Notes under the pieces: generated by a model
The model's database searches: none
Seen by the model: the letters and a program-made list of their open reading frames with translations, nothing else
Told to the model about the DNA's origin: nothing
In this document: positions 5,223 through 37,720 of the stretch, one piece after another
Layout of the letters: each line of letters begins with the position of its first letter
Position numbering within the stretch: position 1 is the stretch's first letter
Position numbers and translations under genes: made by a program
From: Denitrificimonas caeni DSM 24390
GTDB lineage: Bacteria; Pseudomonadota; Gammaproteobacteria; Pseudomonadales; Pseudomonadaceae
Direction: 5' to 3'
Assembly: GCF_000421765.1 (NCBI RefSeq)
Contig: NZ_ATXQ01000001.1
Location: 1 to 64,000 of the forward strand
DNA length: 64,000 nt

Positions 5223-5226
5223 CTTT

Positions 5227-5242
5227 TTGGTGGAGCCGGGGG
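5227..5242. repeat. left island attachment site (duplicated tmRNA 3' end)
   Basis: The 16-bp sequence TTGGTGGAGCCGGGGG is identical to 37721-37736, the 3' terminus (…CCACCA on the minus strand) of the tmRNA gene. It marks the left boundary of the ssrA-inserted island. Confidence 0.9.
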
Positions 5243-10186: not shown

Positions 10187-10948
10187 TTAAATCGGAGACA
10201 CTATTTTCGTGTCTATGAGTGAGCGCAAGTGCTCATCAAGCAACTTTGTAACCCTCCCACCAGAAATCAGAACTCCAGCCTCCATGTTTTTTTCCATAGC
10301 GTGCCCAGTCAAGTTAGCACTGGTGATGAAGCATATATTGCCATCGGCAACGGCAACTTTGGCGTGAACACTTCCGCCGGAAAACGGAGCAGTTTTATCC
10401 TGCCAAGCATAGAGATTAGCAGCCGGAACCAGCGTTCTCATTTTGCCTATCGCATCGAAAGTGATGCTGCCACCATGACTTTTAGACAACTCGAGCAGCA
10501 TAGAGATGACCACACCGCGATCACTTGCCGCGTTCAAAGCCTTAACGATAGTGGACACGTCGTAGGCCACGAAGCTGGTAATGAACAGCGACTGTTCTGC
10601 GGAGTTGATTACCTGCAAAAGCGCTTGCTCTGTTCGACGAGCCGACACGAAAGGTGTCGTCGGACCAGTCCACACAAGTTCAGTGGATTGTTCGAAAGCG
10701 GCTTTGGTGTAAACGTGGCTAGCAGCGATAAGCATTGATGCAAGTTCGTCTGAACCGACTTTGGTGTTTTGCCACGCGACCGCAAGTTGCTCTACCACGG
10801 TGCTGGCCACAGGGGTTCCCACCACGCTCGACAACCCTGTCGCCACCCTGCTGGCATCAATTCGACGAACCCGGGCCGCAACGGCCTGTACTTTCTCAGG
10901 CGAAATCAGAGAGACCAAGGCTGCAATAGCATCCAAAAGCTCATCCAT
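10187..10948 (-). CDS. drmC: DISARM protein DrmC, phospholipase D-like
   Basis: 253 residues from the ATG at 10948, chosen because it lies one base after the drmB stop (TGA-C-ATG); a longer frame from 11035 would overlap drmB by 86 bp. One HKD motif, HAKVAVADGNICFITSANLT, at about residue 200 gives the phospholipase-D-type His, Lys and Asp. A second, degenerate half occurs near TTPFVSARRTEQALLQVINS. DrmC-type proteins are PLD-domain members of DISARM anti-phage systems; in the described system the PLD gene was dispensable for part of the protection. Last gene of the minus-strand operon. Confidence 0.88.
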   Translation of the reverse strand: MDELLDAIAALVSLISPEKVQAVAARVRRIDASRVATGLSSVVGTPVASTVVEQLAVAWQNTKVGSDELASMLIAASHVYTKAAFEQSTELVWTGPTTPFVSARRTEQALLQVINSAEQSLFITSFVAYDVSTIVKALNAASDRGVVISMLLELSKSHGGSITFDAIGKMRTLVPAANLYAWQDKTAPFSGGSVHAKVAVADGNICFITSANLTGHAMEKNMEAGVLISGGRVTKLLDEHLRSLIDTKIVSPI

Positions 10949-10949: not shown

Positions 10950-12815
10950 TCAGAAACCCTTGAAGAAAGCAGCATTGGAGCATTCGAGTGTTGGCACCAA
11001 GAGCGAGCGATCAAGATAACGGTTGCCTCGCTCACAAGATGTCTCAGCTACTAAACTACAGGCATGACAAGCAGCAACATGAAGTGAGCGATCTTTCTCT
11101 GGATCATGTTCCGAGCAGAGTGGATCCGATGAGCAAATCTTCGAACGATTCAGCGCTTGCTCCAACAGGCGGCCAAGATTTTCAGGCTTGCCAAGATCGA
11201 CGAGACCGCCCAGCGTGCCGTCCGAATCGGCTGCTGCCGTATAGATGAGGATGCCTGCCTGCGGGCTAGCGCCCGACGTGTCGGCATAGATACGTTCACG
11301 AATACTCGCGGCGTTGTATCCACACTCCAGAGCCAGCTCACGAATCAGCAAGTGAGACAGCGTGTGCAGCATCGCATAACGAATGCCGGGGTAGCCCTCG
11401 TTCGGGTCGAGATGGCGCGAATTGCGCCACCCCTTGTGACCACCACGGAGCATCTGATCGACCTTTTTTACACCATCCAGAGCCTCCCACTTGACGAGCG
11501 CGGCTTCGTCGAACTGGATGAAGATTCCTTCACCATGAACCTGGTTGGCTGGCACCCAATCCGGCTTGCTGCGTGACAGGCTTGCCATCTGTGGACGTTC
11601 GTTAGGATCATCGGACTCTTCGGGTGCTTCAACCCGCGTGAACCCCAGCAGCGCATTCACTTCCCGCAAGCGCTCTAGGAGCAAGACTCGGCGGATCTGG
11701 CCCCCGAGACCCGGTGGCGTACCGACCTTCTTGCTCATGAAGTGCGGGTAGTCCGTGGGCGGGTTGGCCTCTGTCAGCACACTCCACTCGGGCTCTTTAA
11801 TGTCGGCCTCACCCACGACATCATGCCCACCGCCGGAGCGATGTATCTCAATGGCTGACCAGATCAAGGCTGCTGCGTACTTGTCTATACCTGGCAGCGC
11901 ACCGGTTTTTTTCAAGGTCTTCACTGTCACCGACACTTCGGCTTCGGAATCCAAATCCTCGAAAAACTCCCAGCCATCCTGGATCAGCTGACTCAGAGGG
12001 TCCTTCGTCTGCGGAATTGCGAGAGCCGAGAGAGTGATTGGGAACCAGCTATTGGTAGCTCCCAATAGAACGGCGCGGGCTTCCTCATCGCATTCGTTGT
12101 CGAAGTGATCTAGGTGCGGATGTCTTCCTCGACAGCCTGGCAGATTCTCTTTTCCGGCTTTACCAAAGGCGTGCGCCATGCTTCTTGATGCAGTACACGC
12201 ATCACACTTCACCCACAGGTTTTCGGTTTGCAGCGACGCACCGCTCTCGAAAAAGCGCAACGTACCCTTGCACGAACTGTTACCACCATGGACGAAGTAG
12301 TGCCACGGAAAATCATCAAGATGGCCATCACGGCAAGCCAACAGGAAACGTGCGGGTACAGCATCCGCATCCTTGGCGGGTTGATCTCCCTTGGATCCAC
12401 GACAGCCTTTATGTACGAAGCGAGTTCGCTCAGGTCTAAAGCGATTCTCCTTTATCTCGAATAACCCGGCGTCAAAGGGCGATAGTAATCCGCACTTCAC
12501 GCAACGCATCCAGCGCGGGAAAGGCCTCACAGGCACACCAATGTTAGCCTCAGCCGACCAAGGGTCGACAAGTTCGCTTTTCTGAAAAGGTGGCATCCGC
12601 AAGTTCTCAACCTGTGCCCCCAAAACTTTACGAACTGCAGCTAGTAGACGCGCCTCTTGAATTGGCTGGCAGCGATCCTTTTCCCACCGATCAATACCAA
12701 GCGTCACCACGGAAAGGCTCGGCAAGTCGATTAAGGCACCTGGGCCGTAAGTCCACAATAACTGGCTTGGGCGTACTTCGCCGACTGGCGTTTTATTATT
12801 GATAATCATATTCAA
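10950..12815 (-). CDS. drmB: DISARM protein DrmB (DUF1998)
   Basis: 621 residues, ATG at 12815 overlapping the drmA stop by 4 bp (ATGA). N-terminal RPSQLLWTYGPGALIDLPSL is the family's usual opening. Cys-rich zinc-binding patterns follow: CVKCG (about residue 105), FLLACRDGHLDDFPW, CDAC (about 205). The C-terminal DUF1998 region has YAMLHTLSHLLIRELALECG and the Cys/His cluster CSSDPLCSEH…CHACSL. DrmB acts with the helicase DrmA; the DrmA-DrmB pair is the core complex of DISARM and is thought to recognise and load on phage DNA. Full length. Confidence 0.95.
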   Translation of the reverse strand: MNMIINNKTPVGEVRPSQLLWTYGPGALIDLPSLSVVTLGIDRWEKDRCQPIQEARLLAAVRKVLGAQVENLRMPPFQKSELVDPWSAEANIGVPVRPFPRWMRCVKCGLLSPFDAGLFEIKENRFRPERTRFVHKGCRGSKGDQPAKDADAVPARFLLACRDGHLDDFPWHYFVHGGNSSCKGTLRFFESGASLQTENLWVKCDACTASRSMAHAFGKAGKENLPGCRGRHPHLDHFDNECDEEARAVLLGATNSWFPITLSALAIPQTKDPLSQLIQDGWEFFEDLDSEAEVSVTVKTLKKTGALPGIDKYAAALIWSAIEIHRSGGGHDVVGEADIKEPEWSVLTEANPPTDYPHFMSKKVGTPPGLGGQIRRVLLLERLREVNALLGFTRVEAPEESDDPNERPQMASLSRSKPDWVPANQVHGEGIFIQFDEAALVKWEALDGVKKVDQMLRGGHKGWRNSRHLDPNEGYPGIRYAMLHTLSHLLIRELALECGYNAASIRERIYADTSGASPQAGILIYTAAADSDGTLGGLVDLGKPENLGRLLEQALNRSKICSSDPLCSEHDPEKDRSLHVAACHACSLVAETSCERGNRYLDRSLLVPTLECSNAAFFKGF

Positions 12816-15800
12816 TCCTCATCCTTCGTTGCGGGACGAGGCTTCCAATCGTGATCGTCCGTGATATGGCTCGTGTTCATAATCAGGCGCACGCCGGGCT
12901 CTACTTCCCGCATCGACATCGGCACTGTCCAGTTGTCCCATGCTTGAATTCCTGGCGACTTTATCAACGCAACGGTCTTGTCTTTCTCTGGGCCACGTTT
13001 CTCATAGGCTAAGATCCGCCCACCTTTGCTGACTTCTTTCGCCCATTCGTCGGCGCGTTCTTTCAGTTCTGTCTCAGCTAACTGCTTACGTGAGTTATCT
13101 TCGGCAACGTTCCCCGCGCGATTCGCCAATACCTTGATGGCATCCGTCATCTCGGTCTGGTTGGACATACTTAGTTGGCCCGCGCCTTCGTTGGGGCTGA
13201 AGATATCGTTCTCAAGGCGCATTAAACTCAGCATCGCGCCTGTCAAACCTCGGTCCATCGCGCGTGGTGAGAACGGCGTTACCGATTGCGCCTCGACGTG
13301 TTTGTAGAACGTGGCGTGATAGTGTTCGAAGGTTTCGTAATGAGACAGGTCGCGCGGTCTTGCCCATGTGAGCACCGTGCAGACCAAGCCTGGGAAAGAA
13401 CGTCCAACGCGGCTGGTGGCCTGAATGTATTCGGCAGTACCTTTGGGTTGACCATTCACGGCCATTAGTCCGAGTCGATTCACGTCGACACCCACAGACA
13501 GCATGTTGGTTGCCAGCACTACATCAATGGCGCGAGTGTCCCCGTCTTGCCACTTGGTTACGTATTTTCCGGCGCCAGTGTCAAACTCAGATTTAAACTT
13601 CACCTCTAAGTTATCGAGATACTTCGGGATATCCTGGCTAGAGACCCGCGAGGTCAGTTCACGAATATTGCTGACACTGCGTTGAGCCAGCGCCGGCCGC
13701 TCCACCATGCTCATTTGAACGCGATAGGAACGCGTCTGCACATCGTCTTCTGCCAACCGCTTCATGCCGCCCAACTCACGCAGGGAGTTGAAATAGCCGA
13801 CCATAGTCATATACGGATCGGCAGGCTCACCAAAGTGATCAAACAGCTCCTGTGCCGCCGTCAGAAATGCCGTGTAGACGCGGATTAGCATCGCCGGGCG
13901 CGAACTACCGGGTGAACACACGCCGAGGTAGCGCCGCCCCGGCTTGTCTTCGATTGGACGCTGTACCGAGAAAAAGTTATCTTCTACATCCAGACCGTGA
14001 GGTGGAAACACCGAAACACGACGCATGAAGACGTTGTTCACCTGCTCTTTGGCTTTGCGCACCGTCGCCGTGGAGGCGATGATCTTCGGCTTGACCGTTT
14101 TACCATCAAGCGACCAACCACACAGCTCGTCCACAGCGGTCTCATACAAACCCACCATGGTGCCCAGCGGACCACTAATCAGGTGAAACTCATCCTGAAT
14201 AATTAAGTCGGGTGGACGTATCGGATGAATGGCCCTTACCTTTGAGGAAGGAAGCCCCTTGCCAGCTTGGTGATTGCCATTGCAGTCGGCACCTTGCCAG
14301 AGCAGGCCGTGGCGCTCGCATTCCTGACCTGCACGGCCAAACAGCGTACGCACCTGTCCACGCCACGCCATCATGGCGAACTTGTCTACCGTGGCAATCA
14401 TCATGGTGGGGGGGCGGTGATACATTTCTTCGTCCACCACCAGTACAGGAATTCCAGGATGCGACTGCTTGCTGGATTTACCTTTAGAAAAGTCACATCG
14501 ACCTTTTTTATCGCCACAATAGACAAACGTTCGTCCACGACCTTTGTCGATCTCAACGTCTCGCCCCGGGGCTACTTCTGAGCCGCACCATGGACAACTG
14601 GTGAGCTGCGCAGGTGATGCCGCGCCAGCATTGTATTTGCCGGGGTTGCGCACATCTTCAATCGCTCGATGGCTATCCTCGGTTGTACCCGGTGTAACCT
14701 TGTTGCCAACCCACAGGCCGATGGTAAAGGGTTCCGTGCCGAGGGATTTGTCGCCCCTGTCCAGCGCCTCTCGGCGCAATACTTCCATGGCGCAAATCAA
14801 CGCTGTGGCGCGCTGGAACTGCTGTAGCGTCAACAGACGCAGCGTATATCGCATGATCACAGCCAAGCCGCGTGAGCTGTCGTAGCCACCCAAGTTGCCC
14901 TGCATGCGTCGAATGGCCATGGTGAAGGCTGCAACACCCAAATAGGCTTCCGTTTTACCACCACCTGTTGGGAACCACAGTAAGTCCGCATAGGCTTCAA
15001 CGGGCTGAACTCGATCTGGGTGACTCGGGTCGGCCAGCGATGGGATTGAAAGCAGCAGAAACGCCAACTGGAATGGACGCCAACTACGATTTTTTAGCAC
15101 ATCGAACTTATCAATGGTGACATCTTCACCCCGACGCATGGCCAGCGCATATTGGCTGCGCACGCGTTGCGTCGCCATGGCTTGGTTGGCGAACCGGAAT
15201 GCCGCCAGCGCTTTTTCGTTTTCCTTTAACGCATCAATACCTTGCTGCAGGCGCGTATGAATCCCCTGGCAGCGATCCATCGCTTGTTGCGATTGGGTAT
15301 CATAACCGGTGATTTCGGAACCTACCCGAGCGCGCTGTTCATCTATCCACGCAGCATAATCCTTGGTGAGCATACTCAAGGCGTCAACCAACGGATCGAT
15401 ATCCAATGTCGCTAGGCGCTGCATATCGAGCAAACCACTGCTGACCATTTCGCGCATCGCCGGCCGATCGCTCGGGTCAAGCCCAGGGGTCTCCGTTACC
15501 TGCACTTCGTACTGCGGCATTACCGTGGTGCGTACCTCTGTGGCCAGCGTGACGTCGTCTGCGGTTTCGGCATGGACGGCAACACCATGACCCACCGCGA
15601 ATTCCACGCGGTTGCGGTAAATCATCTCGAGAGCTTCGCGTTCGGGGTCCATACCGTCGGCATCCAGCACTGGCCTGCGCCGGAAGATAGCGCGCTTGGT
15701 GGCATCCTCCTCAGAGCGCACGATCAGCTCCGGCTGGAACACCCACGCCATATCGCGGTTGGTGTCTGGTTCCTCTTGCGCATTCACCAAGAACAAAGTG

Positions 15801-16777
15801 ACAAGCCGATCACCATTGGTATTCTTAGCTCGCACGGAGCCTTGAACGCGCACCTCAGAAAATTCTTTGTCAGGGGCCTGATGCGGTATTACGCCCTCGA
15901 TCAGCGGCAGTAAAATCTTGCCGCCACAGGGAATGCGTTGCCACACTTTCGCTTTCTGGCCATTGGATTTAAGTAATTCATGATCACTGTTGGGAACGCG
16001 CTCGTAGCGACCCCAGCGCGCTTCAATCTCAATTTTATCGGCATCACCATCCACACAAAACGTCATGCCAAGGCTGCTGGGAACCAGCGACTGGTTACTG
16101 GCAGCATCAATTTCATCACCAGAATCTGACTCTGGTTCTACACGCCCGGTGGCGGTTCCAAACTCTGCGCCAGGCTCATGCCGCCCAGGGGCCTTGGTCT
16201 CGGTGGGTTCTTCCGCATCTTCATTGGCTAATGGTCCATCCAGCCCCTCAATACCGCCTTGAGCAGCTTCACGCGGAGCCAGTTTGCCAACCAGATAGCG
16301 GTCGCGTACACCCATATCAACGATACGTTCATTGGGGCCGCCAGCTGGCCCCAGCAAATCATCCATCACGGCCAACTGCAGTAGCTCGCGGATATAGGCC
16401 TGATCCTCAATGGCTGGCACTTCCGCGATAGTCTTGTGCAATGCCTTAGGGAGCGTCTCCAGAAAATCAGTCCATTGAACACGTCCAACACTGCTGGTGG
16501 ATGGCGGAGTGAGCGATGTTAGACCAATCGAAACGGCTGGTTCGACCAACAACATGCGGTCGAAGTAGAACGTGGTAGCTTCCAGATCAGACCTAACCCT
16601 CAGTACCCGCCCAACCCGCGTAATATTCCCAGCAGTGTTCAGCACCAACACCCAGTCGTCCTCGACGATGGCTTGATAAAGTGAACGCTCGCCTTTCAAT
16701 CGTAGTGTATAAGGCACCAGTGTGTGATCGGCAGCGGGATCCTGATCAACAATGATCCATGCATTGGTTGTTGTCAT
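12812..16777 (-). CDS. drmA: DISARM helicase DrmA
   Basis: 1321 residues. SF2 helicase motifs are intact: motif I WFPTGGGKTEAYLG (about 600), motif II IIQDEFHLI (about 862), and motif VI QATSRVGRSFPGL (about 1120). A Cys4-type zinc ribbon (CPWCG … CGDKKGRC) is inserted near 730-765. The first 550 residues carry the long DrmA N-terminal region. DrmA is the helicase partner of DrmB in DISARM and may translocate on DNA. Here it follows the GHKL-ATPase gene by 12 bp rather than drmMI directly. High GC relative to both island flanks. Confidence 0.95.
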   Translation of the reverse strand: MTTTNAWIIVDQDPAADHTLVPYTLRLKGERSLYQAIVEDDWVLVLNTAGNITRVGRVLRVRSDLEATTFYFDRMLLVEPAVSIGLTSLTPPSTSSVGRVQWTDFLETLPKALHKTIAEVPAIEDQAYIRELLQLAVMDDLLGPAGGPNERIVDMGVRDRYLVGKLAPREAAQGGIEGLDGPLANEDAEEPTETKAPGRHEPGAEFGTATGRVEPESDSGDEIDAASNQSLVPSSLGMTFCVDGDADKIEIEARWGRYERVPNSDHELLKSNGQKAKVWQRIPCGGKILLPLIEGVIPHQAPDKEFSEVRVQGSVRAKNTNGDRLVTLFLVNAQEEPDTNRDMAWVFQPELIVRSEEDATKRAIFRRRPVLDADGMDPEREALEMIYRNRVEFAVGHGVAVHAETADDVTLATEVRTTVMPQYEVQVTETPGLDPSDRPAMREMVSSGLLDMQRLATLDIDPLVDALSMLTKDYAAWIDEQRARVGSEITGYDTQSQQAMDRCQGIHTRLQQGIDALKENEKALAAFRFANQAMATQRVRSQYALAMRRGEDVTIDKFDVLKNRSWRPFQLAFLLLSIPSLADPSHPDRVQPVEAYADLLWFPTGGGKTEAYLGVAAFTMAIRRMQGNLGGYDSSRGLAVIMRYTLRLLTLQQFQRATALICAMEVLRREALDRGDKSLGTEPFTIGLWVGNKVTPGTTEDSHRAIEDVRNPGKYNAGAASPAQLTSCPWCGSEVAPGRDVEIDKGRGRTFVYCGDKKGRCDFSKGKSSKQSHPGIPVLVVDEEMYHRPPTMMIATVDKFAMMAWRGQVRTLFGRAGQECERHGLLWQGADCNGNHQAGKGLPSSKVRAIHPIRPPDLIIQDEFHLISGPLGTMVGLYETAVDELCGWSLDGKTVKPKIIASTATVRKAKEQVNNVFMRRVSVFPPHGLDVEDNFFSVQRPIEDKPGRRYLGVCSPGSSRPAMLIRVYTAFLTAAQELFDHFGEPADPYMTMVGYFNSLRELGGMKRLAEDDVQTRSYRVQMSMVERPALAQRSVSNIRELTSRVSSQDIPKYLDNLEVKFKSEFDTGAGKYVTKWQDGDTRAIDVVLATNMLSVGVDVNRLGLMAVNGQPKGTAEYIQATSRVGRSFPGLVCTVLTWARPRDLSHYETFEHYHATFYKHVEAQSVTPFSPRAMDRGLTGAMLSLMRLENDIFSPNEGAGQLSMSNQTEMTDAIKVLANRAGNVAEDNSRKQLAETELKERADEWAKEVSKGGRILAYEKRGPEKDKTVALIKSPGIQAWDNWTVPMSMREVEPGVRLIMNTSHITDDHDWKPRPATKDED

Positions 16778-16789: not shown

Positions 16790-18745
16790 CTAAATTCTAT
16801 CTACGATTTTTTCAAGTTTGTCGAGTGATTTACTCTTTTCGATGTACCCAGAATACGCTTCTTGGGCACCATGAATTAGAGTGTCGTAGTGAACGATGCG
16901 ACTGCCTGGAGAGATGGAGGTCATTGACGACTTCAGGCGCTCAGGATTAGACGACTCCTCATCCACCGCCTTGCCCAACACAAAAATCACCTCTATGTCA
17001 GGGGTTGACTGATTTTGCTCTCGTAAAATCTTTGTCAATTTATCAACGTAGGTTTGACCTTGCTCGACCAGTTCGAGCAGGCCCATCTTGCGGCCAACTT
17101 TCTTGAGTTCGACGATGACGTGCTTGCCCGCATTGGTTCTATAAGCGATATCAACGCGACCTAAGCGTTCTTTTTCGGTCATGTCATCAATTATCACTCC
17201 GGCTTTTAGCAGACGCGATTCCATGATTGGGCTATCTGTTGCCCTTTCCCACGCTGGATCTAACAACCAAAGGTGGTCAAACAAATATTGTTGTAGTACT
17301 CGCTCTTTTGCGTCCGCATCAACAATATTCTGGAAGTCGCGAATCGCATCAAGGCGCGATTTAACTATATCCCTGTAGAGAGAAGCTTCCAGTGAATCCC
17401 TATCGGCAAGCACCGCCAATAATCGTTCTGCACTTTCAATACTAGTAACAAATTCCTCGGTAGATCCACGAAGCTTCATTCGCTCAAAGGCCAAGATTCC
17501 GTGCCGATACATGAGTTTCCTGTCTTCTTCCTCATCCACCGGTAGCGCACTAAGTTTGGCAATCAACGTCTCAGCGCTTTTCTTGTAACCATCGGGTAGC
17601 GTATCAAGCCATTCTGCGAGTGCGGGCGAAGTCTCTTTGGCTTTCTCGACCTCATGTTTCTTGCGCCACTCCGTCCAGCGCTTCTCGACCTGCGTCAGAC
17701 GTGATTTCAGGAACGCGATTAGCTGCCCATATCTGGGGTCATCCTCCTGAACACGTTGGCGATCGCTGGTGGCGATATCTGGCGCGTCATCGGCGTCAAG
17801 AAAATCCGCTTCGATCTGCCCGGTGAGGTATTTGGTATAGAGTCGGCCATCATTCAGTTTGTCCAGGATATTTTCATGGAATAGCCGGCCGCGAGCGAAC
17901 ACGACGATGCCGTTGAGGTTACCGGCATCCTCACTGTCGAGTTGCTTCGGAAATCTAGCGGTGCCGATCCAGCCGCTAACCTTCCATCCGGTGTCCCATG
18001 TATCAAAACGATTCGGGAGCGATTCCTGCTCCAGCAGTTGGGTAGCGGGAGTCAGGTCGAGCGGGTCATCACCAAATTGCCATAGAAACTGGACCATCGG
18101 CAGGTCGCCACGATCGGACGACGTGATGGCCTTCCCATCCAGATCAATTTTGAATCCATGCGCCTCCCCGATCACGGAGAAGCGGCGAGCCAGACGCTTG
18201 CGTAAGGCCACCGCTCCACGTCCTAGCCGCTGACGTTTGATGTCGTGCAAAACAATCCGTGTGCCCTGCGACACACAGATCTTTTCAGTAGGTAAGGATT
18301 CGGGACTGTAGAACGGCTCCTTTTTCTGGACGGATTCGTGGATGCCATCCACGGTCATACGAAGACCATGTGCTTCGCCATCTCTGGCAGACTCGACCTC
18401 AATGACGTTGGCGATTGAGAATAGCGAGAGTTTGCCCAGCCCTTTGCGTCCCATCACCGGTCGCCCCTTAGCGGTCGTCTTGCCATGCACGACATCTTCA
18501 TCACGCCGCCGGTAACCGACTCGCAGGTACTTACCGTTCATATCGTCGACCGACATACCGATGCCGTCATCGACGATCTCGATCCAATTGCCGTCCGGAT
18601 CAATCTTTATGTCGACGGTCTCGGCATCAGCATCCCAGGCGTTCGCAACGGCCTCAGTCAGTACCGCAGCGATGTTGCTGTAGAGGTTGATCCCGAGGTG
18701 ATCAAGCACGTTCAGGTCGACCGTCATTTTGTATGTATCTGTCAT
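16790..18745 (-). CDS. GHKL (HSP90/MutL-like) ATPase with C-terminal PD-(D/E)XK-like domain
   Basis: 651 residues from the ATG at 18745, preceded by GGGGAG; 10 bp after the KAP gene stop. N-terminal GHKL ATPase boxes: N box LTEAVANAWDADAETVDI (about 25-42), G1 box VDDGIGM (about 56), G2 box MGRKGLGKLSLFSIAN (about 94-109). A central charged helical region (about 330-480) follows. The last 160 residues contain FDHLWLLDPAWERA, then GRVDIAYR (about 527) and HVIVELKKVG (about 540) with a following helix holding Gln (EQGQTYVDKL): the D…E-x-K…Q pattern of PD-(D/E)XK nucleases, comparable with DUF4263/Shedu-like domains. An ATP-gated nuclease accessory of DISARM is an inference. Confidence 0.85.
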   Translation of the reverse strand: MTDTYKMTVDLNVLDHLGINLYSNIAAVLTEAVANAWDADAETVDIKIDPDGNWIEIVDDGIGMSVDDMNGKYLRVGYRRRDEDVVHGKTTAKGRPVMGRKGLGKLSLFSIANVIEVESARDGEAHGLRMTVDGIHESVQKKEPFYSPESLPTEKICVSQGTRIVLHDIKRQRLGRGAVALRKRLARRFSVIGEAHGFKIDLDGKAITSSDRGDLPMVQFLWQFGDDPLDLTPATQLLEQESLPNRFDTWDTGWKVSGWIGTARFPKQLDSEDAGNLNGIVVFARGRLFHENILDKLNDGRLYTKYLTGQIEADFLDADDAPDIATSDRQRVQEDDPRYGQLIAFLKSRLTQVEKRWTEWRKKHEVEKAKETSPALAEWLDTLPDGYKKSAETLIAKLSALPVDEEEDRKLMYRHGILAFERMKLRGSTEEFVTSIESAERLLAVLADRDSLEASLYRDIVKSRLDAIRDFQNIVDADAKERVLQQYLFDHLWLLDPAWERATDSPIMESRLLKAGVIIDDMTEKERLGRVDIAYRTNAGKHVIVELKKVGRKMGLLELVEQGQTYVDKLTKILREQNQSTPDIEVIFVLGKAVDEESSNPERLKSSMTSISPGSRIVHYDTLIHGAQEAYSGYIEKSKSLDKLEKIVDRI

Positions 18746-18755: not shown

Positions 18756-20897
18756 TCAATCATCAAACGCGCCAACGCCATCAGGATTTATGCCCGCTTT
18801 GAGCATCTCGAATTCTTTCAAAAATTGATCCACTGCTTCGCGTGCCATGTCTGGAACCGTGCCCGACTTCCGCAGGTCTATCAAACGTTGCGCACAGACT
18901 TCCGTATCCAAGTACCGCTCCAACCACGCCGGATTCAAGCGCGGTTGAAGGCTCACGGCCCAATCACCCATCGTCTGCGATCGTGTTTGCGAGCAGAACT
19001 TCGGCAGGAATGTCAGCAGAGCATCATTTGATGAAGTTGCCGCTTCACACCATGACCTTGCCTCGGCAGGGTCGCCCCAGAGACACCATGCGGCCAATAA
19101 GCGAGCAAGTTGCGAATGCGCCAACAATTCGCTCTGACTGAGTTTGGATCTCAAGCCGTTAAGCCAGCAGGCTTTCAGGTCATTAAGAGTGGTTGTGTCA
19201 ACGAGCGCCTCTTCGCCATTCTCCGCATACTTTTTAACCTCGTCGGAGAGTGCCGCGATCAAATAGCGCTGCACTCCGAGGGCACGCCCTTGGTCTATCG
19301 CAGTCTTGAGCAGCTCATGCCGCTGAGCTCGGTCGACGCGTTTGAGAAGGTGATACACCACGCGTGTTACGCGTAATTCGTTGCCAAAATCGAAGGAGCC
19401 GCGTTCATCGCTGTCTAGTACAAGCGAGTCGCCCATATCAAGGAGCACATTGATGAACACCGGGATGTGCGTATCGGGGATATCCTCTTCAACATGATCC
19501 ATGAGTCGTTCAAGTAGCGCTCGTGCTTTTGACAGGCCATCAGGGCGTTTCTCGCTTGCGGCTTGAACCAGCGCGTCGCCCAATGTGGCAGGCGCTTCTG
19601 CCAAGCTCAAAAGTGCCAGCATTTCGCTGCGTCGGACTGCGCCAGGAGGAACGGTCATTCGGAAGTAAGTGAGGAACACATCGGGATGGCAAGCGCGAAG
19701 ACTCCTCCGCCATTGCGCCAACCAATCGGCTCCGTAGCCCATTTTTCCAATTTTCGGAAAAATGCGTTCAAGAAGTGCTCCCGTGCTGGAACGAAGCTGC
19801 TCTGGCAGCGCTTGCGCCCATTGCTCATGAAAGGCTGCACGGGCCTTTTGATCGCTGTCATACCTGCTATCACGACTGTGGCCAGAAAACTTATCCTGAT
19901 TTGTACGGATGACGTCATACAGACCGGGCAGAAAAACGCGAAGCGCTTCAAGTGCGATGAAATCTACCGGGTTAACCTCGCCACGTACCGCCGGATAGGT
20001 TACTGACAATGTATTCGTGAAACGGACGATATCACGCGGCACCTGGATCAGCGGGTCAATCCCATCGTGGAAGGCATTCGTCCAATAGGACTGGTCGAAA
20101 AGGCCGTCAGATGTGTCGCCCAACACCTCATCAAGGCGTTTGAACAGAGCCGCCCGCAACGCCACGCGATCGACTGGCGGCAACTCAAACGGCACTTGGA
20201 TGATCTTTTCCAAATAGCGTTCGCCTGGCATACCACTCTGCTGCTCAATGGCCTGTGCGGCGACTTCACGATCAAAGGCGAGCAGATAGACGACGTTGGG
20301 AAAGTCGGCCAATGCCTTGATGACGGTGAACAGTTGGCGGGCCTCTTCTGGCGTGAGGCGGTCGATATCATCAATGACGACAAGGATTCGCTTTTCAGCC
20401 TCTCGCAGTATCTTGCTGATTTCCGACTTTAGTGCAGGAACGTCCTTCGGCTTGCGCTTGGTGACCATGCCGATGAATTTTCCGATCATCCCAGCTGCAC
20501 CGCCGGTCATGCCACCCAGGTCGATCAGTCCACCAACGCCTTCGGCAAAATCACCCAGCAGGTCGCCCAGCTTTTTGAACTTCTCGCTCTTGGTGGGCAG
20601 CACGGCCTGCAACTGGCCAAGAAAAGCGCGAGCGAGGTTTTCCTGTCCGGAGAACCACCATGGATTGAAAGTCACGATGACAGGCTGTTCAACTTCCGAG
20701 CGCTGTTCCAGAAAGTGCCGCACATAGCTCAATACTGTGGACTTTCCTGAGCCCCACGGGCCATAGAGCGCCAGTACCAAGCCATCATTGCCCGGGTAGC
20801 GGCAAATGCTATTGGCAAGACTCTCGGCGAACGGAGCATGCCCGAACAGATCGTCCTGCGGGTTTGAGCTTGGGCGATCGGCCGAGAGTGCGGTCAT
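18756..20897 (-). CDS. KAP-family P-loop NTPase
   Basis: 713 residues, start overlapping the drmMI stop by 4 bp (ATGA). Opening DDLFGHAPFAESLANSIC is typical of KAP NTPases. Walker A is LYGPWGSGKSTVL (about 44-56); Walker B is ILVVIDDIDRLTPEEA (about 170-185), followed by the sensor-like VVYLLAFDREVAAQAI. A Gly/Ala/Met-rich hydrophobic stretch (GGMTGGAAGMIGKFIGMV, about 125-145) lies in the place where KAP proteins carry membrane segments. The C-terminal half is helical. KAP NTPases occur in several defence contexts; no effector domain is seen in this protein, so it may power or regulate the neighbouring GHKL-nuclease. Confidence 0.88.
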   Translation of the reverse strand: MTALSADRPSSNPQDDLFGHAPFAESLANSICRYPGNDGLVLALYGPWGSGKSTVLSYVRHFLEQRSEVEQPVIVTFNPWWFSGQENLARAFLGQLQAVLPTKSEKFKKLGDLLGDFAEGVGGLIDLGGMTGGAAGMIGKFIGMVTKRKPKDVPALKSEISKILREAEKRILVVIDDIDRLTPEEARQLFTVIKALADFPNVVYLLAFDREVAAQAIEQQSGMPGERYLEKIIQVPFELPPVDRVALRAALFKRLDEVLGDTSDGLFDQSYWTNAFHDGIDPLIQVPRDIVRFTNTLSVTYPAVRGEVNPVDFIALEALRVFLPGLYDVIRTNQDKFSGHSRDSRYDSDQKARAAFHEQWAQALPEQLRSSTGALLERIFPKIGKMGYGADWLAQWRRSLRACHPDVFLTYFRMTVPPGAVRRSEMLALLSLAEAPATLGDALVQAASEKRPDGLSKARALLERLMDHVEEDIPDTHIPVFINVLLDMGDSLVLDSDERGSFDFGNELRVTRVVYHLLKRVDRAQRHELLKTAIDQGRALGVQRYLIAALSDEVKKYAENGEEALVDTTTLNDLKACWLNGLRSKLSQSELLAHSQLARLLAAWCLWGDPAEARSWCEAATSSNDALLTFLPKFCSQTRSQTMGDWAVSLQPRLNPAWLERYLDTEVCAQRLIDLRKSGTVPDMAREAVDQFLKEFEMLKAGINPDGVGAFDD

Positions 20898-23800
20898 TCA
20901 TTCTCTCCATCAAACAGATCGCCAAGATTTTCTTGAAGAGCATTGTCTTTACCGCGTGAGCGACGTTTTTTGTCGTTGCACTTTTGAGCGCTGAGTGAGC
21001 TAACTTTAATGAGTTCCTCATCGTTGCGTTTACGATTCAATGTCGCGAGTCGTTCGAGTATGGCTTTTTTGGCCTTCTCGGTTATAGAAAATCGCACTCC
21101 TTGTCTCGTTTCGTGAAATCCATGTCCAAGCTCGACATCATTCCAGCCATAAGCGGAAACTACAGATATATCCAGCTCTCGATGTAAATCACGCAAGCCA
21201 ACGATCTCAGAGCTGCGATCTTCTGCATCATGCATTCTGTTGTAAATTTTTGTTAATCCAATCTGCTGGCCTTCGAGTAGATTTTGGCGATATTCGTAGT
21301 ATTCCTTACCCGACTCCTCCACCAGATCCAAGTTATCTGGGAACGGGAAAGTGGAAAGAACAGTGCTGGCCGTATATCGAAGTAGCTCAAGACTGGTTGA
21401 GCAGTATTGCCATACCCATTTTTCGTGAAGAGTCGATTGTAGGCATCCGTAAGTAGCGAAATCGGGTCTAACGATAACTACCATTGGATGTGCAAAAACA
21501 CTTTTCGCAGAGACAAAGGTCGGGAAGATATATTTTGCGGTAAAAGGCTGAACGATCACCCGATCTAGTTGCGACAATTTCTCTTCAAGCCCAGGCCGCG
21601 CCTCGGCATACCTCCACCAACGTTCACGATTGGCTTTTCTCTTAACAAGGTCTCTTTCTGGCTTTACTAGGTCTCGAACCAAAGCCAAACATTCTGGAAA
21701 TTCGCTTTCGCACTCAGCGAGCTCGCGCATTGAAAAATTTATCGCATATAAGCCTGACGACTGACTTGGCTCATTGTTAATGTCGTCGCCGCGAATATAT
21801 TGAAATATCGCCTTGGCGTTGTTTTTATTGGCCTGAATCAGACTGTTCTTTTCTTCCTCATTGAGAACAAACCCTTGCCCCATCAAGTAGTGGCCAGAAA
21901 AGCAGAGCCCCTCATTCGACGCCAACTGTTTCGGTGATGAATCAGCCTGATCTTCGGAGCTTTGCAAATAAGAAGTAATAGCGCCAGAGGTAAGCTGGCC
22001 ATTGATTTTTACCGCGCCACTCCATTCGAATTTGGAAATGTGTACTTGGGCTATTTTGACGCCAGCCAATCCAGGCCACTCCATCGAAGGAACGCAGCTG
22101 TATACCGAAAGACCATCGGCGAGCAAGCGCTCAAGTCCGTTAACTCTTGACTCACCTTGCGAAACGATGTCACTCAAAATCAGACCTATGTAGCCGCGGC
22201 TCTCTGAAAGCAAGGACGCTCTGATCAGAAAATAAACACACAAATCGGTTGTTCCGGCAGGCCCGTTCAACCATGTTTTCAAATAGGTGAGCAGTGCTTC
22301 TGAATGTCGAAATGTAATTCTCCGGCCACCCAAGAATGGTGGATTTCCAATCAACGCACTAAATCCACCACCTGAAGACGAAACAAAAACCTCTGGAAAC
22401 TCCAGCGGCCAATGAAAGGGGCGACGAGGAGGTTTGCCTACAGGCAACTCAACGGATAGGGAGGACTGTGCTCGACACTTTATTGCGTTAAATGCGTCGC
22501 CATTACCGTCAATTGCTTGACCTGCTTCAATAGCGATGGCATCCAGAACAGATCTACCTGATGCAGTAAAGACAGCGCCGATAAATGCATCCGCTATCAA
22601 TTCGGACACGGATAGACGACGACGAGCGTCTGCATCCAATTTCGCCATGACCTCAACATCTTGGATGTCGCGAATCGGCATCTCACGCAAACGCTGGCGA
22701 AGTTCGATCGCTTCGTGAACAGCCTTTTCGATGTTCTTGCCAAACAAACGCTGCTGCCCTTTGTCGCCGGGCGTCATTGAGAGTTCGGTCAGTTGGTCCA
22801 AGCGGGTGATTCCGAGCAAGCTGTCACCTGAACGCAGGTTGTGATCGAGAAAGCCAAAGGGACGCCCCTTTGCCAGCGTCACCAACCAGATTGAGAGCTT
22901 GGCCAGTTCGACGGCTAGCGGGTTCAAATCGACGCCGTACAGGCAACGTTCGGCGATGAGACGGCGCGCGATCACCGTGCGTGCTTCGCTGTCGCGCGGT
23001 AGAAGTTCCTTTGCCGCATCTGCGTCCAAGATTTCACCATCCACACTCACGGCTTGGCCCGAGGCCTCGACCTGAGACCAAGCCTCGACGAGGCGATCTG
23101 ACAGCCAACGGCAGGCTTGCACCAGGAATGCGCCCGAGCCCATGGCGGGGTCGCAGATCTTGAGGTCGAGTAGCTCAGAGGGGGATTTCAGCACCCAACG
23201 ATCGCGTGGCGTTCCCTCAGCTGGGCCGACATAGGTCACTGGCGTGAGCGTCTCGGTAACGATCGCTTCGGTCAGTGATTTCGGGGTGTAGTGGGTGCCG
23301 GTTTCGCGTCGATCGGAACCGGTGGTGACGATGAAGGCTCCAGCGGGATACACCAGCGGATAGCCCCACGGGTCGGTTCGCAGCAGTTGGGCATAGGGTT
23401 TGACACGATCGCGCAGCCTGGTGTCGCCTTGGCAAGCCGTCAGCAGGCGGTCGGCCAGGGTGTCGTCGACGGGCTTGGCAAGATCATTGCGCACCCGACT
23501 GGCAGAGCTACCCGTTCGCTCTTTCAGCAATGCAGCTAGTTGTGCAGCACCATCCAACCGTGCCGAATCCAGCTCGGCCAACGTAACCCATGGCTTTTTG
23601 GCGCTCTTGGTGGCATCCAGTTCCAGTGTGACTTGATCGATACGTTTAACCGTGCGCTCAAGCAGCCCCTCGTAGACGTAGCCGATCTGTTCGACATCCA
23701 GTGCGCGGTAGGACAGCGTACGGCCCTGGAATTGCTGGATAGCTTCCAGCAACAACAGCACGGTGCGGTTGTCGATGGGCAGCGGTGTGGCCGCATCAGT

Positions 23801-24943
23801 ACGCCAACTCGAGCCCTTGGCACGACCTTCGAGGAAAGGGAAACGATCCGGATCGAACAGTGATCCGCCCAGCGCTGGGAGACGCAGGTTCTCGTGTTCG
23901 ATGCCGCCGAACACAGCGCGAAAGATCGCCAACAGACGTGACCAAGCATCCCAGCGGCGCTCGAGGATCTCTTCGGATTCCTTGCGCAACTGCATGCGCA
24001 AGGTGGAGAGCGCGTAGTTAGCCTCGTAGCGCTCGTCGCCCATCAGCAGCAGGCCGCGTTCTTCGGCGGAGAGCAGGAACACCAAGCGCATCATCACCGT
24101 CAGCGCGGCTTCATACAGCTCGGGTTCCTTGACGTCGTGCAGAAGTTCTCGATTGCGATCCTGGTCGGCTTTGTCGAGCGTCTGGATCAACACCTCGACG
24201 GCGCGGCGTACTTGCTCGCCAAGGGCGTCGGTGACTTCGTCCTGGAATTTCAGGGAACGATCGAACAGTGCGGGCAGTTGTTCGGACTCATCGACAAAGA
24301 AACGACGAATGCCGAGCAAGTGTACAAAGGCCTGCAGGGTGATGGGCTCCTGAGTCCAGATGCGTGCATACCAACTGGCAAATGTTGTGACCGCACCCAC
24401 TGGGGCATCCACCAGCATCCAGCGCTCGCCGTTGGTCACTAGTCCGAGGCGACAATCGAGCGAACGGCATAACTGCACCATGCGATCGGCGGGAGTGGCA
24501 ACCCAACCGTCTCGCTTCAAGGTGGCATCGAGATCGATATCCTGCGCATAGCTCTGGATCAGCAGTAACGGTTTGTTCGCGCGTTGTTCATCAATCACGG
24601 CAAGATCGGGTGACAGCGTCACACCGTGTTCGGGTAAGTTGGCTTTGAGGTTTGCGGCGCACCAATCGGCACGCTTAAGCACGTCGCCTTTGCCGTCTTC
24701 ATCAAGTTCGAGGCCTCGCGATAGTACTTCGTCAATCCAGGCAACGTGCAACTCAGCGAACTGCGCGTCTTCCAGCTCCAGCGCTTCGCGCCATTCCTCG
24801 TAAGCTTGGCGCAGACGTTTGCGTTTAGATGCATTGAGCTCTTCCAGCCCTTGAGGAAAGGCCTCCTTCAGAACAGGAACGGCGAGGAAGGGGCCGGAGA
24901 TTTCTATTAGCGACAGCCAATCATGATGGTTTTCGTAACTCAT
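20894..24943 (-). CDS. drmMI: DISARM adenine-N6 DNA methyltransferase DrmMI
   Basis: 1349 residues, starting inside the drmD stop (4-bp overlap). SAM-binding motif I is CDPAMGSGAFLVQACRWL (about 598), catalytic motif IV is IGNPPFLGGRRIT (about 865), the N-P-P-F form of class gamma adenine methylases (Eco57I-like). A large N-terminal helical region (1-450) and a C-terminal specificity-like region surround the catalytic core. DrmMI marks host DNA so that DISARM does not attack it; the recognition site cannot be read from sequence. The protein has no visible N-terminal PD-(D/E)XK motif, so it is not a fused type IIG restriction enzyme by eye. Confidence 0.92.
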   Translation of the reverse strand: MSYENHHDWLSLIEISGPFLAVPVLKEAFPQGLEELNASKRKRLRQAYEEWREALELEDAQFAELHVAWIDEVLSRGLELDEDGKGDVLKRADWCAANLKANLPEHGVTLSPDLAVIDEQRANKPLLLIQSYAQDIDLDATLKRDGWVATPADRMVQLCRSLDCRLGLVTNGERWMLVDAPVGAVTTFASWYARIWTQEPITLQAFVHLLGIRRFFVDESEQLPALFDRSLKFQDEVTDALGEQVRRAVEVLIQTLDKADQDRNRELLHDVKEPELYEAALTVMMRLVFLLSAEERGLLLMGDERYEANYALSTLRMQLRKESEEILERRWDAWSRLLAIFRAVFGGIEHENLRLPALGGSLFDPDRFPFLEGRAKGSSWRTDAATPLPIDNRTVLLLLEAIQQFQGRTLSYRALDVEQIGYVYEGLLERTVKRIDQVTLELDATKSAKKPWVTLAELDSARLDGAAQLAALLKERTGSSASRVRNDLAKPVDDTLADRLLTACQGDTRLRDRVKPYAQLLRTDPWGYPLVYPAGAFIVTTGSDRRETGTHYTPKSLTEAIVTETLTPVTYVGPAEGTPRDRWVLKSPSELLDLKICDPAMGSGAFLVQACRWLSDRLVEAWSQVEASGQAVSVDGEILDADAAKELLPRDSEARTVIARRLIAERCLYGVDLNPLAVELAKLSIWLVTLAKGRPFGFLDHNLRSGDSLLGITRLDQLTELSMTPGDKGQQRLFGKNIEKAVHEAIELRQRLREMPIRDIQDVEVMAKLDADARRRLSVSELIADAFIGAVFTASGRSVLDAIAIEAGQAIDGNGDAFNAIKCRAQSSLSVELPVGKPPRRPFHWPLEFPEVFVSSSGGGFSALIGNPPFLGGRRITFRHSEALLTYLKTWLNGPAGTTDLCVYFLIRASLLSESRGYIGLILSDIVSQGESRVNGLERLLADGLSVYSCVPSMEWPGLAGVKIAQVHISKFEWSGAVKINGQLTSGAITSYLQSSEDQADSSPKQLASNEGLCFSGHYLMGQGFVLNEEEKNSLIQANKNNAKAIFQYIRGDDINNEPSQSSGLYAINFSMRELAECESEFPECLALVRDLVKPERDLVKRKANRERWWRYAEARPGLEEKLSQLDRVIVQPFTAKYIFPTFVSAKSVFAHPMVVIVRPDFATYGCLQSTLHEKWVWQYCSTSLELLRYTASTVLSTFPFPDNLDLVEESGKEYYEYRQNLLEGQQIGLTKIYNRMHDAEDRSSEIVGLRDLHRELDISVVSAYGWNDVELGHGFHETRQGVRFSITEKAKKAILERLATLNRKRNDEELIKVSSLSAQKCNDKKRRSRGKDNALQENLGDLFDGENE

Positions 24944-27900
24944 GCGGCACCTCCCTGAGCTGCCGATTCAGGCACGAGAAAGATGACGGCGACCGGGAAA
25001 GTACGATCATTGAGTTTGGCATAACGGGTTTCGATGGCTTCAGCCTCCTGCTTGCGCTCGGCCGGAATACGAGCAAGGCGCGTTTCCAGTGCGGCAGTAT
25101 CTCGCCTGAGCTGAGTTCGCTCATCTTCAGAGAACAGGGAAAGCTGAGAAGGCTCTTGGTCTTTATACAGCTCTGCCTGGATAGCTTTTTCCAGCTCATC
25201 CAGTACCGCATTGATATCTTCCACTTCCTGCTGCTTGCGTGACTGTAGAGTATTGGTAAGAAACTTTAGGCGGTCTTTGGACCGTGCATCGACCGTTTGC
25301 AAGATGGCGCTTTGCGCACGATCGAAACGCACACGAATGGCATCAAACAGAGAGTCTTCAGCTTTAATTGGTGTGGCTTGATCCAGCCATTGCTGGACCT
25401 TGGTAACACCGTCTTCGCGTCGGAAAGATTTATCGCTCAGATAGCCTCCGGACACCGTCAGCTCTTCGTGGAGGCGGTGATGGTTGCCGCCAGTTACGAC
25501 CAGCCGCGAGATGACGACCACGGCAGGCCCATCGATCAGGGCGTCTGGCACCGAACGCACCGTGACGCGATGCAACTTCTTCACATCGTCTTGCGCCCAG
25601 ACCTCGGCACGTAGCAAGCGCAGGCACATCTGCACCAGTCGGTGGTTCAGGTGAACCAACACCACATCATCACGCCCTTTTGCCAGGGCGTGATCGAAGG
25701 TGACAGGCCGGATTTGCAGTGTGTGGGGGTGGCGCAGCCCCTCAAGACAGCGCGCCCATGAGCCCGATAGCGCGGGCATCTTGAATACGGTGCCCGCTGG
25801 GGTGTCGGCCAAGGCAAAGGGCTCAAGCGGCGGACGACCTGCCAACTTGAGGCCCGTCTTGACCGCCATGAGGATGTGTTCTGGCGTGAGATGGAAATCC
25901 TGCTGCGTGGTCAGGAGTCGTTCGTGCAGTTTGGCGACTCGGTCTTTCAGCTCGCGCTCGGCGCGCACGAAGCGTCTGGCTTTGGCGATCTTGGCTTCAG
26001 CGAGACGGGTATCGAGGTCTTTGAGCGAGCCTTCGATCAGCCCCGACATTTGCGGCGCGATGACCGGGTTGACGCTGCCCATGTCCGCCCGCATGGATTC
26101 GAGTTTGCGCAGTGCCCGGATGATGTCGTCGCCGTGACCGCCAATGGTAGCTTTGCCCTGATCGCCGCCATCAACGGGGTGCCAAATTAAGACCTCTTTC
26201 TGACGCTGACCGTGCCGATCGATACGGCCGTTGCGCTGCTCCATCACGTTGGGGTTGTACGGGATCTCCAGATGGATGAGACAGTTACAGTGGTTCTGCA
26301 AGTCGATACCTTCTGACGCGGCATCGGTGGCTAGCAGAATGCGCACCGCTGAATCCTTGGGCGAGGTTTGGAAGGCCGCTTTGACTTTCTCGCGCTCATC
26401 CTGTGGCATGCCACCGTGAAGGATGGCCAGTCGATCGCCACAGAAATCGTGGCTGGCCAAGATCTCGTGCATCCACTGGTGCGTAGTGCGGTATTCGGTG
26501 AACAAGATGACCCGACGATCATTCCACTGCCCGTCGGTCTTGAGGTTGGCCTTGAGCCAGTCGAGGATGGCCTTGGCCTTGGCATCGACCTGATTCTTGG
26601 CTGTCTGTGCCCACGACCGCAGTTCGTTCAACATTTGTTGCTGCTCTGCTGTCAGCGGTTGCGCGCGACGCGAGGCTTCTTCAACGGCTTCGGATTGGGC
26701 GTTTTCGACCTCTTGGTCATCCGCGTAGTCTTCCTCAACCCTTAAGATGGCTTTGCGCAAAATGCGGTCGGCCATTACATCCTTGTCTTTGCGTTGGCTG
26801 CCATTGGCCAGGCTGGCAATGTGCTTTTCCAGGGTGGATGCGAACGCAGCGGGTGAAGAGAAGAGCCGTTTCTTGAGCAACTGGTTGACGAACGACGTGC
26901 CGAAGGCATTACCGACCTTTTCGGCATCCTGCTCGCGGCTCGCGCAGTAGTCGTTCAGTTTTTGGTGAATGGCGCGCTCTTGTGGGGAGTACGAGGCCAG
27001 TAACGCTTGCAACTTGCGCTGCGCATAGAGCGGCTTACCTTCGGCATCGACCAGATCGCTTTTTAGGCGACGTATCATCACCTGACTCAGCTGCTTTTCA
27101 TCCGGCAGAATGTTTCGGGCAAAACGCTGGTCGTCCAATAACTCCAGCAGCGACGTAAAGGATTCGGTGTAACCGTTGTGTGGGGTTGCCGTCAGAAACA
27201 GGCGATGCTGGAAGTGTGGACTGATGGAACGGATGAAGCGTGTGCGCTGGCTCTCCAGCGCGTAGTTCGCACCGGCAGCGGGGGCGATGTTGTGTGCTTC
27301 ATCGACGACCAGCATGTCGAATTTGCGTGGATAGCTGGTATGCGCGGGCAAGACATCGCGCATGGCGCGCAGTCCTTCGCCGCTCTTGACCCAGTCCATG
27401 GAGGCAATCAAGCGCGGATGGGATGTCCACGGATTGGCATGGATGCCGCGATCTCGGCGCAGCTGCTTGATGTATGCCGTGTCGACAACCCGGAAATCAA
27501 GGCCAAACTTTTCCAGCATCTCGACGCGCCACTTCTCTTGCAGAGATGCGGGGCAGATGATCAGGACGGTGCGGGCACGGTGCCGCAGCAACATCTCCTG
27601 GATGACGAGACCCGCCTCGATGGTCTTGCCCAAGCCGACGTCGTCAGCGATGAGCAGATTGACGCGCGCCATGTCGATGGCACGCACCAAGGGATCGAGT
27701 TGGAAGTCTTCGATGCTGACGCCACTGCGGAACGGCGCTTGCAGAAATCCTCGGTCGGCATTGGTGGCAGCACCCCAGCGAACTGCATCAAGAAAAGCGT
27801 CGAGGGTGTTGGAGTCATCCTGGCCAGTAATTGACGGCAGACCTGCGCGCTCAATGATTTGCGCGCCTGGCTCAATCTCCCAGATAACTTCAAGCTCTTC

Positions 27901-28080
27901 CCCCAACCCATCTTCATCAATAGATGTGAGGGTCACGGCATTTTGCTGCGCCTTCGTTGATATCAACTTGGATGAAACAACTTCGACAACAACCCACTGA
28001 CGTCGCCTGACTTCTACCAACTGCCCTGGTTCTGGACGAGCACGGTAACCCTGATTATTCTGTATATTCGAACTTTCCAT
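24940..28080 (-). CDS. drmD: DISARM SNF2-like helicase DrmD
   Basis: 1046 residues. SNF2/RapA-type motifs: I LLIADDVGLGKTIEAGLV (about 140-157), Ia ICPASLQEKW, II VVDEAHNIAP (about 257), III FLTATPHNGYTESF (about 297), and C-terminal VI YNPNVMEQRNGRIDRHGQ (about 610-630). A charged helical C-terminal region follows (about 950-1020). DrmD, paired with DrmMI, defines class 1 DISARM; class 2 systems have DrmE instead, and no DrmE-like gene is present here. The ATG at 28080 lies 75 bp downstream of the C5-methylase stop. Confidence 0.93.
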   Translation of the reverse strand: MESSNIQNNQGYRARPEPGQLVEVRRRQWVVVEVVSSKLISTKAQQNAVTLTSIDEDGLGEELEVIWEIEPGAQIIERAGLPSITGQDDSNTLDAFLDAVRWGAATNADRGFLQAPFRSGVSIEDFQLDPLVRAIDMARVNLLIADDVGLGKTIEAGLVIQEMLLRHRARTVLIICPASLQEKWRVEMLEKFGLDFRVVDTAYIKQLRRDRGIHANPWTSHPRLIASMDWVKSGEGLRAMRDVLPAHTSYPRKFDMLVVDEAHNIAPAAGANYALESQRTRFIRSISPHFQHRLFLTATPHNGYTESFTSLLELLDDQRFARNILPDEKQLSQVMIRRLKSDLVDAEGKPLYAQRKLQALLASYSPQERAIHQKLNDYCASREQDAEKVGNAFGTSFVNQLLKKRLFSSPAAFASTLEKHIASLANGSQRKDKDVMADRILRKAILRVEEDYADDQEVENAQSEAVEEASRRAQPLTAEQQQMLNELRSWAQTAKNQVDAKAKAILDWLKANLKTDGQWNDRRVILFTEYRTTHQWMHEILASHDFCGDRLAILHGGMPQDEREKVKAAFQTSPKDSAVRILLATDAASEGIDLQNHCNCLIHLEIPYNPNVMEQRNGRIDRHGQRQKEVLIWHPVDGGDQGKATIGGHGDDIIRALRKLESMRADMGSVNPVIAPQMSGLIEGSLKDLDTRLAEAKIAKARRFVRAERELKDRVAKLHERLLTTQQDFHLTPEHILMAVKTGLKLAGRPPLEPFALADTPAGTVFKMPALSGSWARCLEGLRHPHTLQIRPVTFDHALAKGRDDVVLVHLNHRLVQMCLRLLRAEVWAQDDVKKLHRVTVRSVPDALIDGPAVVVISRLVVTGGNHHRLHEELTVSGGYLSDKSFRREDGVTKVQQWLDQATPIKAEDSLFDAIRVRFDRAQSAILQTVDARSKDRLKFLTNTLQSRKQQEVEDINAVLDELEKAIQAELYKDQEPSQLSLFSEDERTQLRRDTAALETRLARIPAERKQEAEAIETRYAKLNDRTFPVAVIFLVPESAAQGGAA

Positions 28081-37527: not shown

Positions 37528-37545
37528 GATATATCTCCACACCCT

Positions 37546-37608
37546 TTGGTATTCCAAGAATACATTAAACATCCTTGGAATACCTTTTGGAATACCATGT
37601 GGAATACC
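37546..37608 (+). repeat. three tandem 12-mers ending GGAATACC plus one inverted copy (right integrase arm)
   Basis: CCTTGGAATACC, TTTTGGAATACC and ATGTGGAATACC follow each other without gap at 37573-37608, and TTGGTATTCCAAG lies inverted at 37546-37558. The group overlaps the integrase upstream region and is 112 bp inside the right att core. The same motif is present at the left end (5301-5324). Confidence 0.8.
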
Positions 37609-37711: not shown

Positions 37712-37720
37712 GATGATGAT

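Follow-up and report, generated by a model that had tools for sequence, protein, structure and literature searches.

Proteins in which a GHKL ATPase is joined to a PD-(D/E)XK nuclease have been described before. ParaMORC3 proteins, reported in 2008 by Iyer, Abhiman and Aravind, feature GHKL and S5 domains and a C-terminal RE-fold with an E-D-ExK motif, and are associated with DNA methylases and SFII helicases (PMC2292703). The paper predates DISARM, and the embedding of such genes among drmD, drmMI, drmA, drmB and drmC is not named in its accessible sections. VcSduA, a GHKL-Shedu protein ('type I-D') featuring DUF4263, defends as a single gene, and phage defence is lost in ATPase as in nuclease point mutants; no methylase is described with it (PMC12137116). 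NCBIfam sorts further proteins into the 'BbrUII/HgiDII family restriction enzyme' (NF050001), whose standalone members are found adjacent to a C5-cytosine DNA methyltransferase (C5-MTase). Given paraMORC3, NF050001 and VcSduA, the GHKL-PD-(D/E)XK fusion is not new. As to class 1 DISARM, the operon of Serratia sp. SCBI includes a C5-MTase and an adenine MTase, and neither a GHKL restriction enzyme nor a KAP NTPase is mentioned in the accessible sections of its description (PMC9142583).

The window, i.e. the whole stretch of 64,000 nucleotides of Denitrificimonas caeni DSM 24390 analysed here, encodes a further member of the BbrUII/HgiDII family. The setting, a class 1 DISARM operon, seems to be new within the open-licence literature searched. 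The protein is probably a plug-in, sequence-specific restriction enzyme residing in the slot between drmMI and drmA, with the methylase of the DISARM operon as antidote, rather than the core nuclease of DISARM.

Architecture of the 651-aa protein

16790..18745, minus strand: BbrUII/HgiDII-family restriction enzyme gene, 651 aa (NF050001, HATPase_c_3, PADLOC REase_II, AlphaFold2 models, fold matches)
17642..18724, minus strand: GHKL ATPase and S5/transducer module, about residues 8-368 (Morc3 5ix2 match; N, G1 and G2 boxes conserved in 76/76 homologs)
16790..17305, minus strand: predicted PD-(D/E)XK nuclease domain, about residues 481-651 (E481, D532, E546-x-K548, Q562)

The reading frame starts with the ATG at 18745, just 3' of a GGGGAG ribosome-binding site, and ends at 16790; use of an alternative in-frame ATG at 18781 would yield a 663-aa product. 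From the N to the C terminus, the protein is made of a GHKL ATPase, an S5 domain, a helical linker and a PD-(D/E)XK nuclease. It matches NF050001 along the entire profile (862 bits vs a cut-off of 550, positions 1-659 of 659), includes a HATPase_c_3 domain, and is labelled REase_II by PADLOC. The likeness to the BbrUII/HgiDII family extends to the identical order of domains, and to the presence in the locus of a C5-MTase of the same family. The protein also conforms to the paraMORC3 description, as it features GHKL and S5 domains, and an RE-fold in which the E-D-ExK residues correspond to E481, D532, E546 and K548.

A GHKL ATPase fused to a PD-(D/E)XK-like domain had been originally predicted from the N, G1 and G2 boxes and the motifs GRVDIAYR, HVIVELKK and EQGQTYVDKL. 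All are in place, the latter three about 425 residues past G2, and the fusion is corroborated by invariant residues, fold matches and the assignment to NF050001. Residues E31 and N35 (N box), D59, G61 and G63 (G1), G99, K101, G102, G104 and K105 (G2) are intact, and all ten are identical in 76/76 aligned homologs, some of which are only about 25% identical overall. The same holds for E481, R530, D532, E546, K548, Q562 and Y566 in the C-terminal region. Identity of both ATP-site and nuclease residues in all homologs indicates that the match to the catalytic motif is not due to chance.

In the full-length AlphaFold2 model (mean pLDDT 81), the best fold match of the ATPase module (residues 8-368) is Morc3 (5ix2; Z 24.9, rmsd 3.3, 297 aligned residues), and MORC2, SMCHD1 and Hsp90 are also matched. 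The comparison with MutL and HSP90 initially drawn holds true in that the module is of the Hsp90/MORC type. The GHKL + S5 ATPase fold is common to MutL, Hsp90, MORC and the 651-aa protein, but the latter falls far under the cut-offs of the MutL, HtpG and MzaB profiles, the MutL scores being 29.9 bits vs 391, and 28.2 vs 180. The nuclease of MutL itself has a different fold.

The prediction of a C-terminal PD-(D/E)XK nuclease is supported by residue conservation and modelling. Secondary structure assigned by DSSP to the full-length model runs as alpha (481-490), beta (507-511), beta (530-536), beta (542-547), alpha (556-576) and beta (584-590). The alpha-beta-beta-beta-alpha-beta order, set in the original prediction as the hallmark of the fold, is thus present in the model, with the first strand in a low-confidence stretch. 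D532 is located on the second strand, E546 on the third with K548 adjoining, and Q562 in the 556-576 helix. The domain modelled alone (pLDDT 71, a lower confidence than that of the full-length model) best matches in the PDB the Bacillus cereus Shedu nuclease domain (8ti9, Z 9.4, rmsd 3.9, 149 aligned residues; 8ti8, Z 9.2), so that the kinship with Shedu originally surmised is found at the level of the fold. E. coli SduA (8ps5) and EndoMS/NucS (5gkj) follow, both with Z 7.9; Nt.BspD6I, FokI and EcoT38I score lower. Since chains of RNA polymerase subunit E reach scores like that of EndoMS, only the Shedu matches stand slightly clear. By sequence, membership in Shedu was rejected, as the SduA_C profile (PF14082) scores 15.7 bits (E 0.017) vs a gathering cut-off of 27, and 17.4-18.5 bits in relatives. 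A profile search of the C terminus against PDB sequences gave nothing significant; NucS was the best real candidate (E 0.34), and in this weak alignment the D, ELK and Q residues line up.

The DISARM operon and its element

28156..29196, minus strand: C5-cytosine DNA methyltransferase, encoded at the start of the operon (DNA_methylase PF00145, 4e-59)
24940..28080, minus strand: drmD, SNF2-like helicase of class 1 DISARM (NF038317, 1416 bits vs a cut-off of 610)
20894..24943, minus strand: drmMI, MmeI-like adenine methyltransferase (PADLOC DrmMI, 1860 bits; Eco57I/MmeI Pfam domains)
18756..20897, minus strand: P-loop NTPase of the KAP family ('PifA' in PADLOC), which shares the drmMI-drmA slot with the nuclease (KAP_NTPase, 2e-60)
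12812..16777, minus strand: drmA, class 1 DISARM helicase (NF038325, 1510 bits vs a cut-off of 950)
10950..12815, minus strand: drmB, DUF1998 protein (NF038324, 770 bits vs a cut-off of 240)
10187..10948, minus strand: drmC, PLD-family putative nuclease (NF038319, 254 bits vs a cut-off of 133)

Along the minus strand, the order of genes is C5-MTase, drmD, drmMI, KAP NTPase, nuclease, drmA, drmB and drmC. The C5-MTase gene is spaced 75 bp from drmD, gaps of 10 and 12 bp separate the nuclease gene from the KAP gene and from drmA, respectively, and the remaining junctions from drmD to drmB are 4 bp overlaps. The start of drmC is placed at the ATG at 10948, the longest reading frame starting at 11035. 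The DISARM setting assumed at the outset is substantiated by a complete class 1 operon, recognized by NCBIfam, PADLOC and Pfam profiles: drmD, drmA, drmB and drmC exceed the NCBIfam cut-offs, and drmMI was assigned by PADLOC. DrmA is related to its Serratia counterpart, and scores 2538 bits against the solved structure of the latter (7s9v). Whereas in standalone BbrUII/HgiDII pairs the methylase is adjacent to the nuclease, in the window it is located about 9 kb upstream, and drmD, drmMI and the KAP gene are found in between. KAP NTPase genes reside at the equivalent place in loci L016, L017, L021, L034 and L096.

An integrative element at ssrA carries the DISARM locus. A 17-bp direct repeat (5226-5242 and 37720-37736) brackets about 32.5 kb of the window, which include, besides DISARM, YqaJ, DUF932 and a Gp3-like recombination directionality factor. 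The tmRNA gene (37722-38111, minus strand) has the repeat copy at 37720-37736 at its 3' terminus, and next to this copy lies a tyrosine integrase gene (36307-37572).

Distribution of the nuclease and content of the drmMI-drmA slot

Homologs of the nuclease were collected by scanning GTDB species genomes, from which the best 80 relatives were taken, and viral contigs, which contributed 78 more. Among the relatives surveyed, nucleases at least 73% identical to that of the window reside in DISARM operons in 24/24 distinct loci, found in several phyla; the gene is in the drmMI-drmA slot in 20, after drmC in 3, before drmD in 1. Remoter members of the family mostly form standalone pairs with a C5-MTase, often accompanied by Vsr, in chromosomes, plasmids and P2-like phages, and separate associations with DISARM occur at L008, L050, L052, L060/L074 and L062. 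On the nuclease tree (like the other trees, a quick search for which SH-aLRT values are the only support), 6 changes between DISARM and standalone state are needed, at least 5 of which are forced by starred branches. One clade of 25 rows is found only in DISARM, and support for the main DISARM clade is 83.

P2-like phages (L015, 8001-11049; IMG/VR loci L117-L133) carry the family enzyme, denoted 'ParaMORC3', beside a Dcm-type methylase, between portal and replication genes. Four copies of the family (L073, L084, L085, L090) mark the uncultured Cenarchaeum chromosome OY282369.1. Between the restriction enzyme and drmA, L020 (11877-16739), L025 (11962-16715) and L034 (from 11964) encode another drmD-like helicase (about 1043-1071 aa), together with a protein of about 545 aa with no Pfam match.

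DISARM loci were also sampled independently of the nuclease. Searches via drmA or drmD identified nine related class 1 loci (L195, L232, L243/L244, L276, L278, L280, L285, L287, L288), in which drmA is at least about 60% identical to that of the window. A C5-MTase is found at the head of the operon in 9/9, a BbrUII-family nuclease in 0/9, and the drmMI-drmA slot is empty in 4. The methylase hence belongs regularly to this DISARM subtype, and the nuclease is cargo. A strict coupling of C5-MTase and nuclease in DISARM is ruled out by the same loci, since all have the methylase and none the nuclease. The remoter class 1 DISARM loci surveyed, from cyanobacteria and actinobacteria, lack a C5-MTase of this kind. 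A DrmA search of viral contigs yielded only three loci, and a search of 395 genomes around an enterobacterial relative a single, more distant DISARM locus.

The original prediction held that the gene may supply the nuclease of DISARM. Its lack in all nine control loci rules it out as a core component, and the family mostly resides outside DISARM, in ordinary restriction-modification pairs with a C5-MTase. It is unlikely that the protein is a true effector of the system, i.e. an ATP-gated nuclease recruited by DrmAB loaded on phage DNA, which it would then degrade. The exclusive finding of close relatives in DISARM is in keeping with such a role, as is the fact that DISARM backbones whose nucleases have diverged still keep one of the BbrUII/HgiDII family; yet control operons do without the gene, four of them with nothing in its place, and the divergence of the nuclease correlates only moderately with that of DrmA (r 0.57, vs 0.94 for DrmA and DrmB). 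According to Bravo et al., DrmC is dispensable and the DISARM nuclease 'remained a mystery' (PMC9142583), which leaves room for an effector. In L050 and L074, DrmB proteins are 88% identical and nucleases only 52%, and the MTases of the two genomes group together; the nuclease thus appears to have been exchanged under a constant methylase.

The slot also hosts unrelated cassettes. UvrD-like helicase + DUF2290 pairs, defence-associated according to PADLOC, are found in L276 (11760-14617) and L280 (5405-8265). L195 (13510-15924) and L278 (5441-7852) feature a Methyltransf_35 protein paired to another kind of GHKL (HATPase_c_3) protein, about 470 aa long; NCBIfam profiles did not match the Microvirga pair, nor did PADLOC models match the L278 pair. 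L243 (12440-15622) encodes a 1060-aa protein with a sub-threshold match to reverse transcriptases. In the DISARM operon of L040, which also encodes a C5-MTase, the slot is filled by an AspBHI-N + Mrr_cat enzyme (11960-13180), of a kind known to cut DNA containing 5-methylcytosine. Such variety, and the location of the whole locus on an integrative element, would fit an ordinary restriction-modification system which landed in the operon and is linked to DISARM by co-transcription alone. This is an improbable explanation, because associations with DISARM arose about six separate times on the tree and one clade is confined to DISARM, and because the nuclease has no adjoining methylase of its own and would have to depend on that of the operon.

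The C5-methylase, its site and the proposed mechanism

In a tree that does without M.HgiDII itself, the group accompanying standalone BbrUII-family enzymes encompasses the C5-MTases that head DISARM operons (support 98). Compared to 29 standalone partners, the MTase of the window has a mean identity of 58.5% in the region containing the target-recognition part and 50.5% in the N-terminal catalytic part. This is the reverse of what is expected for enzymes differing in specificity, and suggests, at the sequence level, that recognition sites are shared or similar. No other C5-MTase was detected in the complete genome, and no methylase is encoded directly beside the nuclease, which would have to rely on the enzyme of the operon. 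A family MTase was found in 12/13 nuclease-bearing genomes searched. Only the genome behind L024, a MAG that may be incomplete, departs from this: its nuclease is embedded in DISARM, and no family C5-MTase is detectable. The head C5-MTase probably protects host DNA against the nuclease.

The site may be GTCGAC, methylated by M.HgiDII (PMC5867850), or a degenerate TCGA-centred sequence, such as the YMT(mC)GAKR reported for the C5-MTase of Serratia class 1 DISARM (PMC9142583). The two share the TCGA core, but GTCGAC does not fit YMT(mC)GAKR. Avoidance of GTCGAC is uninformative as evidence of specificity: 10 sites are found in the window vs about 13 expected and, by a rough composition estimate, no depletion is seen in the genome (447 sites).

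It is very unlikely that the protein acts in the manner of Shedu and VcSduA, as an ATP-gated nuclease sensing a DNA or phage feature rather than unmethylated sequence and free of a cognate methylase, since the closeness of the nuclease fold to Shedu, the single-gene defence by VcSduA and the L024 genome are outweighed by the end-to-end match to a restriction-enzyme family, the C5-MTase adjoining family members in most loci surveyed, and the SduA_C score below threshold. VcSduA shares with the window protein the combination of GHKL ATPase and PD-(D/E)XK nuclease, and differs from it as a single-gene system, the window protein being accompanied by a C5-MTase.

The plug-in reading builds on the family, domains and invariant active sites of the protein, its operon position and recurrent association with DISARM, and the kinship and uniqueness in the genome of the methylase. 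The nuclease would act as a dimer, whose N-terminal GHKL gates would shut around DNA upon ATP binding, in the manner of MORC, Hsp90 and MutL. Once closed, this clamp would license the pair of C-terminal PD-(D/E)XK domains to cut unmethylated, possibly TCGA-centred, target sites in incoming DNA, host sites being protected by the head C5-MTase, which also belongs to DISARM loci devoid of this nuclease. ATP-driven gating is plausible by homology to VcSduA, in which ATPase and nuclease mutants both lose defence. The enzyme would thereby add sequence-specific double-strand cutting to the structure-sensing DrmAB helicase, and share the self/non-self mark of DISARM. An enzyme cutting GTCGAC is expected to leave 4-nt sticky ends. 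The direct loading of DrmAB on such ends is weakened by its reported need for 5' overhangs of about 7 nt, shorter ones being bound poorly (PMC9142583); hand-over is hence unlikely without resection or unwinding.

If the plug-in reading is true, the locus illustrates how a defence operon may take in a foreign restriction enzyme and the host survive, the required methylase being present beforehand. It would also provide a defined C5-MTase and nuclease pair to ask whether the DISARM mark protects against DrmAB only or against plug-in nucleases too, and a system in which the gating of a PD-(D/E)XK restriction enzyme by ATP can be tested. More speculatively, and with considerable doubt, class 1 DISARM could be viewed as featuring an internal cargo slot, and a C5-MTase serving as common antidote to a range of interchangeable, ATP-gated restriction enzymes that share one specificity; plug-in cutting and structure sensing by DrmAB would then form one layered system, with breaks feeding DrmAB after resection or unwinding.

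The window has no Vsr mismatch endonuclease gene beside the C5-MTase or after the nuclease, where it is often found in DISARM loci, as in L032 (11974-12441), L043 (1509-1994), L195 (5831-6280) and L285 (6811-7245).
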